From assembly GCA_016200325.1 (NCBI GenBank), contig JACQEZ010000020.1:310001-374000 (forward strand): DNA of 64,000 bases. Direction: 5' to 3'. The notes beneath the pieces were generated by a model. It did not search any database. It saw nothing but the letters and a program-made list of their open reading frames with translations, and was not told the origin of the DNA. This DNA comes from Candidatus Manganitrophaceae bacterium. GTDB taxonomy: Bacteria; Nitrospirota; Nitrospiria; SBBL01; Manganitrophaceae. Both the position numbers and the translations under genes were made by a program. This document shows, in pieces, positions 22,411-24,240 of the stretch; within the stretch, counting starts at the first letter, position 1; each line of letters opens with the position of its first letter.

Positions 22411-23045
22411 ATGGGCAGCGTCTTATTTGAAGGCATAGGGCGTGGGGTTTCGCCCCACCCCCCACCGTGGGGGCCGACTGCCCGGCCGTTTATCATCTGT
22501 GGGGCCGGCGCAAGGAGAAGAAGATGGATTTCTGATCGTTACACCAGGTGCGCCTTGCCCCACCCCAAGGCCTCCCCGTGCAGCCGGGGGGAGAGATCCC
22601 CCCCGCTCCCCCCTTACGGTCACAACTTGCACCACGCACGAAAGAGCATCGTGGATGGTGCTTCGACAGGTGACCTGATTCGGTCGGTGAGACATCTGAT
22701 ATAAAACGCAGCAGCGTGGGGGGGCGTAGTACGCCCTTGTCGCGCAGTCGCTTACGATCTTTTTTAATTCAAACACAAACAGTACTAGATTTGGGTTTAT
22801 CTCCTCGGTGGCACGCTGTGTCGGAGCGCAAGGGCCCCACTGGGGGATGGGTGGAGCGAGGACGCAGTGTGCCACCGCTATAAATGAAATGTTCCATCTA
22901 CCTTTACAGGGCGCCTGTCTGAGGCACAGTCCGCACTGCTCTTTGTGCGGTCGCGCCGAGTTCGGCCGTGGGGGGGTAAAACCCCACGAACTTAATACAG
23001 GGGGTCTGGGGCCATTACCATTCCCAAGTTTTTGGTATTTGATTA
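22411..23045 (+). ncRNA. Candidate large structured RNA or decayed element, hairpin-dense non-coding region
   Basis: The 705 bases between DUF1841 and the aminotransferase hold no credible gene. Hairpins crowd 22442-22989: GTGGGG/CCCCAC (22442-22458), CCCCCAC/GTGGGGG (22459-22473), GGGGGGA/TCCCCCC with a GAGA tetraloop (22586-22603), GGGCG/CGCCC (22722-22736), CCGCAC/GTGCGG (22931-22950), GCCGA/TCGGC (22955-22966) and CGTGGGG/CCCCACG (22967-22989). The longest stem pairs 22807-22822 with 22861-22876, 16 bp including two pairs that are G-U only if the plus strand is transcribed. No reverse transcriptase, transposase or nuclease gene adjoins. No known RNA family was recognised, and strand is inferred from the wobble pairs. 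Confidence 0.45.
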
Positions 23046-23055
23046 GGTAACAACA

Positions 23056-24240
23056 TTAGAGATGGCTCCCTGAGTTTATGAAGACATTGAGTCTATTTAG
23101 GGCTTCTTCGAGCAGGGGAGGGGCTGAGACAAAACTTAAGATCAGATGCGCCGGATCGAGATCATAAAAGTAGCCGGGGTGGACGAGGATCCGTTCCCGG
23201 CGCAGGAGCTCGAGTGCGATCTCTTCTTCGTCGGCGTTTGAATTATTCAATCGCAAGGTGGCATAGAAGCCCCCTTCCGGCGGGATCAAAGAGAGTCGGC
23301 GGGATGGGGAGAGGATCCGAACCGCACGCTGCGCACGCTCTGCGATGGCGGCCTGATATTCGGCCGAGAAGGTCTTTCCTCCTTCGAAGATCGCGGGGAT
23401 GGCGAATTGGGCGGCTTCGTTCACCGGAAGAAAAGTATCGGAGATCGTCTCCAGCGCCATCATCGCCTTCTCGACCTCCGGCGCTCTGCCGGTAACCGCC
23501 ATCCAGCCGATCTTCATTCCCGGCAGGGCGAACATCTTCGAGAAGCCGTTCAACGTCAGAACGAGCGGTCCGTCGGCCGCGGCCGGGCGGGGAAGCCGAT
23601 GCTCCTTAAAGAGAAACGGACTAAAGACCTCGTCTGAAATGATGGCCAACTGATGACGTCCGGCGATCTCGGCAATCCGCGCGATCTCCGTCTCAGTCGC
23701 GACGGCGCCGGTCGGGTTGTGAGGGGAGATCAGGATGATTGCGCGTGATCGCGGCGTGATCTGAGATTCGAGCTGATCGAAGTCGATCTCCCATCGCGCC
23801 CCCTCTCTCAGTCGATAGCCGATCATTCGGACCCCTGCGAGCGTAGCGATCGCATCGAAGAGGGGATAGGAGGGACGCGGGGAGAGGATCTCATCCCCCG
23901 GATCGGCCAACAATCGAAAGGCATACCAGTAGGAGAGGCTCGTGCCGGGGGTCAAGAGAATCTGCTCGGGCGGGATCGAGAGCCCTTCATTTAGATAGGA
24001 CCGGCTGATCGCCTCGCGGGCGGTCTGTTGGCCGAGCGGGTCAGGCCGATAGGTCTGGGCGAGGCGCGCTCCTTCTTGCAGCGCCCGCTCCAATGTGCCT
24101 TGGGGGTAAACCAAATCATGATGGTGGACATTTCCGGAGACAAGATCGATGATCTTCTCTCCGCGGGCTTGGAGCGCGTTTCGCTCGCGGTAGAGCGGAT
24201 TGGTTTCACCTTGGAAATCGTTCGCGAGGTCTGAGAACAT
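23056..24240 (-). CDS. Class I/II pyridoxal-phosphate aminotransferase
   Basis: A 394-residue fold-type I aminotransferase. The PLP lysine is K235 in LNGFSKMFALPGMKIGW, with N175 in SPHNPTGAV and D203 in IISDEVF. The pattern is closest to aspartate/aromatic or alanine aminotransferases; substrate cannot be fixed. It is 75 bases downstream of an alpha/beta hydrolase gene on the same strand, so the two may be co-transcribed. The last gene base is 11 bases from the hairpin-rich interval. Confidence 0.9.
   Translation of the reverse strand: MFSDLANDFQGETNPLYRERNALQARGEKIIDLVSGNVHHHDLVYPQGTLERALQEGARLAQTYRPDPLGQQTAREAISRSYLNEGLSIPPEQILLTPGTSLSYWYAFRLLADPGDEILSPRPSYPLFDAIATLAGVRMIGYRLREGARWEIDFDQLESQITPRSRAIILISPHNPTGAVATETEIARIAEIAGRHQLAIISDEVFSPFLFKEHRLPRPAAADGPLVLTLNGFSKMFALPGMKIGWMAVTGRAPEVEKAMMALETISDTFLPVNEAAQFAIPAIFEGGKTFSAEYQAAIAERAQRAVRILSPSRRLSLIPPEGGFYATLRLNNSNADEEEIALELLRRERILVHPGYFYDLDPAHLILSFVSAPPLLEEALNRLNVFINSGSHL

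Follow-up and report, generated by a model that had tools for sequence, protein, structure and literature searches.

MITEs and REPs are used here in their published definitions (PMC3733652, PMC2817692). Bacterial MITEs, among them RUP, NEMIS/Correia, ERIC and Nezha, are short, non-coding, dispersed and intergenic, have no transposase of their own and place strong hairpins beside genes, and in all these respects they are the same as the element described here; they also have terminal inverted repeats (TIRs), which are found in several subfamilies of the element. REPs and BIMEs with RAYT (the GTAG class), together with the CGTC REPs, resemble the element as extragenic palindromes that are orientation-specific, occur in operons and often lie no more than 15 nt from a stop codon. 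The CGTC REPs lack a dedicated transposase (PMC3733652). HEARO/IscB omega RNAs and other mobile-element RNAs of Rfam share with the element that they are structured, covary and occur as dispersed stand-alone copies. The attC sites of integrons are similar again, each being a folded single-strand site with a covarying stem and a variable tip.

The first-pass annotation had drawn attention to a 635-base stretch of the window (the whole 64 kb of DNA that was analysed) as being dense in hairpins, free of any credible gene and surrounded by ordinary genes. All three points hold. The hairpins are present as described, both on reading the sequence and in an inverted-repeat listing; the long ORFs inside the stretch, two in number, have no Pfam match; and a Pfam search found the neighbouring genes to be ordinary. 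A DNA search of the window's own genome identifies a dispersed palindromic repeat, of which the window holds one degenerate copy at 22437-22990 (plus strand; about 550 bp, with degenerate ends). The search returned 69 matching pieces in total, 35 of them for 22437-22990, and the best full copies were aligned by eye. There are dozens of copies or fragments in this genome, the best matches being 89-93% identical over 404-408 bases. Full copies are about 550 bp long (range 400-560 bp) and have inverted arms of about 100 bp, and none of the copies that were read has coding content.

The left terminal arm (CGTGGGGTTTCGCCCCACCCCCCACCGTGGGGGCC..., 22437-22487, plus strand) is 90-98% identical to the arms of other copies, at the opposite end of which the same sequence stands inverted. 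The right terminal arm (CGTGGGGGGGTAAAACCCCACG, 22967-22988, plus strand) is worn, and was recognised as an inverted repeat and by its cross-match to the inverted left arm of other copies. The earlier suggestion that similar GTGGGG/CCCCAC hairpins near the two ends bound an element is borne out: those at 22441-22459 and 22970-22988 are mutually inverted (84%) and are worn terminal arms. Comparison of the copies marks out an extra hairpin module (GTGGGGCCGGCGCAAGG...CCTTGCCCCAC, 22488-22568, plus strand), missing in most copies of the same genome, present in the copy at C8:206750 and found in tandem in congeners. This module (22488-22568) is a second palindrome, about 75 bp long (GTGGGGCCGGCGC...GGTGCGCCTTGCCCCAC) and set within the left arm; it occurs as a mirror image on both arms at one locus (L013) and in tandem in a congener (L052, G001:C279). 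The 7-bp hairpin with a GAGA loop (22586-22603, plus strand) is also as first annotated, with GGGGGGA at 22586-22592, GAGA at 22593-22596 and TCCCCCC at 22597-22603; it is part of the long left arm, which is repeated inverted in full copies.

The core hairpin (22806-22877, plus strand) is a long stem with two G-U pairs around a conserved apex (AAGGGCCCCACTGGGGGATGGGTGGAGCGAG, 22830-22860, plus strand), whose conservation was seen in a pattern search of Nitrospiria genomes and genome contigs. The 16-bp stem between 22807-22822 and 22861-22876 is exact, with 14 Watson-Crick and two G-U pairs, while the inverted-repeat listing gives its arms as 17 nt and 88% complementary. Covariance model R1 matches 22806-22877 over model positions 15-93 of 110 (50.1 bits, E 5.7e-9), and this is its sole match in the 64 kb. 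The window copy has kept the core and a P2/P3-like stem, and has lost the outermost, P1 part of the frame seen in the wider family. The conserved unit is about 110 nt, of which about 70 nt survive in the window, and not the 635 bases originally marked.

In the five congeners (L301-L305) the DUF1841 gene is separated by about 110-150 bp from the aminotransferase class I/II gene (23056-24240, minus strand; PF00155); in the window the gap is about 700 bp. Since the gap is short and empty in five out of five, the element was inserted in the lineage to which the window belongs, at the aminotransferase gene's 3' end. Judged by eye, the element seems to have entered at the stop codon, the present gene ending in other residues. 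The gene now ends NVFINSGSHL, unlike the congeners; these odd C-terminal residues are probably due to the insertion. The 11 bases CTTATTTGAAG (22422-22432, no strand assigned) also end the aminotransferase gene in L303 and L305, and are a probable remnant of the gene end from before the insertion, an assignment that was made by eye and is uncertain because element ends elsewhere read CTGAAGGTCG, which is partly similar.

Copies of the repeat are present in all five congeneric genomes; other families share only the core. Many contigs of the window's genome start or stop within the repeat (for example C3, C6, C8, C9, C10, C17, C19 and C20). It thus seems to set a limit to the assembly, and longer, autonomous copies could go unseen because of it. 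Because of the many copies and contig breaks, the presence in all congeners and the empty site in all five, we consider it likely that 22437-22990 is a degenerate non-autonomous mobile repeat of the MITE/REP kind, that is, a long imperfect palindrome whose arms serve as terminal inverted repeats and whose tip carries the conserved core of about 110 nt.

The predicted RNA fold of the 635-base stretch is more stable than all 20 shuffles on the plus strand (z -5.9) and likewise on the minus strand (z -6.1). Overall stability therefore does not single out the plus strand, and folding so far above shuffles on both strands is as expected of a palindromic element. In an alignment of 29 diverse copies, stems P1 (GCGGGT/ACCCGC), P2 and P3 enclose the apex. 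Pairing is found in 91% of cells, compared to 73.5% on shuffling and less than 40% when the alignment is slid; as this alignment also served to predict the structure, the slide control is inflated, though not by as much as observed. Of the 35 pairs, 22 have changed on both sides, and there are 193 double-change cells where 68 are expected, a result given by none of 500 shuffles. The compensatory changes mean that the fold itself is under selection. The invariant bases of the core are GGGTGGC...GACAGGACCC, and in the apex, too, many positions are the same over several phyla. It might be supposed that the stretch is a decayed insertion sequence or a pseudogene whose hairpins arose by chance, given its terminal inverted repeats and the lack of an open gene of known family. 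However, the copies are non-coding and only 400-560 bp long when full, and the covariation, which marks the fold as selected, refutes this as the main explanation; we give it very little credence.

None of the 4227 Rfam families matches the window stretch: no family was found in the window at the gathering threshold, and relaxed thresholds, applied to the region and 33 related loci, gave nothing credible on the element. A weak miRNA-type match at one related locus (L319) was rejected, as it reflects the long perfect hairpin there. The first-pass proposal of an unrecognised structured RNA is thus right in that the fold is real, outside Rfam and selected, but what the window holds is a degraded copy of a dispersed repeat and no single-locus RNA gene.

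The two strands can be told apart by their mismatches. In 38 non-redundant copies, the non-Watson-Crick steps of P2 and P3, read on the plus strand, are 26 G.T and 9 A.C (p = 0.006), counted after removal of one conserved C.A column that had dominated the first count. The excess of G.T points to the plus strand as the one that folds, as RNA or as single-stranded DNA. The bias is visible only by mismatch counts in the aligned arms, and total G-U in minimum-energy folds does not tell the two apart (106 on plus, 122 on minus). The G-U pairs of the long stem had been taken to suggest selection for RNA and not DNA structure; the wobbles do favour the plus strand, but a hairpin of single-stranded DNA explains the bias equally.

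The core is widely but patchily distributed. With up to three mismatches, the apex AAGGGNCCCACTGGGGGATGGGTGGAGYGAG is present in 41 of 197 Nitrospiria genomes, and its reversed control in none. A degenerate 29-base version of the apex matched 111 stretches in contigs of one-per-species genomes, from Nitrospira, Manganitrophus, Rokubacteria/Methylomirabilota, Gammaproteobacteria MAGs, Omnitrophota, Aminicenantes and one Acidobacteriota record; many of these records are MAGs, of which single ones may be misbinned, and several have many copies. Viral contigs, plasmids and phages gave no match to the apex pattern or the core. The covariance model, built from the A1 alignment, matches 76 of 194 Nitrospiria genomes. 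Loci L306-L324 have the same frame with unrelated apex sequences, with up to 17 model matches per genome (families f10 and f14 of the class).

Copies are found with preference, and in one orientation, beside the stop codon of a convergent gene. The stop codon of an opposite-strand gene lies 2-14 nt from the 3' end of the element in 28 of 77 distinct copies, a figure inflated by orthologous sites, about 15 independent sites remaining by eye; the mirror arrangement is found in 2 of 77. Sites include nuoA-nuoB, gatB-eno, sucC and secD-secF, and some copies, such as those at nuoA-nuoB and gatB-eno, have kept their operon position across several genera. Essentially only such orthologous sites recur. 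At unrelated sites the copies have no neighbouring gene in common, and any enzyme therefore acts in trans.

The nuoA-nuoB gap in Nitrospira is a good example. The element is present there in some genomes and missing in most, with deletion remnants in two (L240 and L247). Five other Nitrospira loci (L246, L250, L251, L255 and L258) have a different hairpin repeat behind nuoA, with a core like GCTCGCGGAACGCGCGGCCTCGGAAGGCCCTCGTTCGACGCGCGCA. That the gap is variously occupied, empty, partly deleted or filled by another hairpin is a further reason to see the element as a mobile repeat. In the genomes where the element occupies this gap, its outer left arm repeats the 3' end of nuoA in inverted orientation, an arrangement that may have arisen by template switching at the palindrome. 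At L073, L075, L087 and L133, the outer left arm consists of the final 12-15 bases of the adjoining host gene, inverted, and the palindrome extends into coding sequence.

The retention of some copies at one operon site in several genera would also suit a functional structured RNA, either a cis-element or a small RNA, that is copied around genomes and kept for a function of its plus-strand RNA, as would the 22 covarying pairs, the invariant apex bases and the excess of G.T over A.C (26 to 9). We think this unlikely, since the element is patchy even in Nitrospiria (76 of 194 genomes) and absent from many orthologous sites, has an apex sequence that is exchangeable between lineages, and has no match in Rfam. 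Furthermore, beside stop codons the mRNA carries the minus strand, and not the plus strand that tolerates G.U pairs. The same placement recalls REPs that lie within 15 nt of stop codons (PMC12306157), and the wobble bias on one strand is what a hairpin recognised on one strand would show, as for a single-stranded-DNA element of the REP/RAYT kind with an IS200/IS605-like Y1 transposase. This is less probable still: no Y1_Tnp gene was found in four carriers (G005, G198, G199 and G200), the element does not flank any of the 20 Y1 loci that were fetched, and at more than 100 nt, with no unpaired GTAG or CGTC tag, it departs from the 20-40 bp hairpins of the definition (PMC3733652). RAYT was accordingly rejected as mobiliser, being absent in several carriers and fitting poorly with Y1 loci that have no flanking element.

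The family is modular. Its shared frame is GGGTGGC-P2-P3-SCGCARCG[apex]YGAGSACG-P3'-P2'-GACAGGACCC, in which the apex differs between lineages. In Nitrospira and Methylomirabilota the terminal arms around the core are TARCCCTAATCCGAAAATA; those of Gammaproteobacteria and Rokubacteria are TARCSCGGATTATTCATGAACG; Manganitrophus has the long GTGGGG arms; and many Nitrospira copies have no recognisable TIRs. With arms of the TARCSCGGATTATTCATGAACG type, the core is missing at L266 (118 bp) and replaced at L263, L264 and L278. These different inverted arms around the same core, and the cases in which the core is gone or exchanged between the same TIRs, also lead us to the mobile repeat. TA flanks 27 of 38 ends in two TIR-bounded subfamilies but is not universal; it would fit a TA-targeting IS630/Tc1-like enzyme. 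When flanks were joined in search of an empty site with a target duplication, none was recovered. In the window's genome no transposase or autonomous partner with the same ends was found; here TIR pairs are at most about 550 bp apart and many contigs end in the repeat.

We therefore return to the mobile repeat as the best explanation. The element is repeated and dispersed, and is absent from the syntenic site in five congeners; its core covaries across phyla, and it is placed at stop codons in one orientation (28 against 2 of 77), the last two also being grounds for this reading. The long-term retention of some copies (nuoA-nuoB and gatB-eno, across genera) could also reflect a host function, and is counted against it, together with the unsuccessful searches for a transposase or autonomous partner and for an exact empty site with target duplication, the TA flanks that are not universal, and the many Nitrospira copies in which no TIRs are recognisable. 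Three things are inferred: an enzyme that moves the element, a role for its apex, and an influence on mRNA. A transposase acting in trans may recognise the folded plus strand and/or the arms, and would place copies at the 3' ends of genes. A copy just behind a stop codon inside an operon would give a strong hairpin in the mRNA and might, in the manner of REPs, reduce translation or alter mRNA decay; for REPs no more than 15 nt from a stop codon, ribosome stalling and lowered translation have been reported (PMC12306157).

These results add a mobile-hairpin family to nitrite- and manganese-oxidising bacteria. The repeat probably explains many of the assembly breaks in the window's genome, and it occupies operons such as nuoA-nuoB and adjoins sucC. 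With its constant frame, changing tip and one-strand fold, the family allows the question of the mobiliser to be put to the test outside the REP/RAYT model. In openly licensed PMC papers on Nitrospira repeats and REPs, no description of it was found.

Of the known systems, attC sites differ in having a GTT/AAC core, which was not noticed in the element, and cassette arrays, where the element's copies are solitary. HEARO/IscB omega RNAs differ in that the element is unmatched in Rfam at relaxed thresholds and has no recurrent adjoining gene. Compared to the REP hairpin of 20-40 bp, the core is about 110 nt with 35 pairs, there is no unpaired GTAG/CGTC tag and there is no link to RAYT genes; the element thus falls outside the REP definition in palindrome size and tag and, for the GTAG class, in RAYT association. 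It has the dispersed short non-coding copies, the TIRs (worn in the window copy) and the empty sites of MITEs, but differs from them in its covarying, base-conserved core over several phyla, with arms and apex that vary by lineage, in the several copies with no recognisable TIR, and in that the parent transposase was not found. The family is apparently an undescribed, cross-phylum family of mobile hairpins, whose closest kinds are MITEs and REPs. More speculatively, it may be a modular nucleic-acid device, neither REP/RAYT nor ordinary MITE and possibly acting through RNA, made up of a conserved folded frame and an exchangeable apex that is the same throughout a lineage and differs in others, each type of apex perhaps being read by its own cognate protein. 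It would then be a mobile hairpin whose tip sets specificity.
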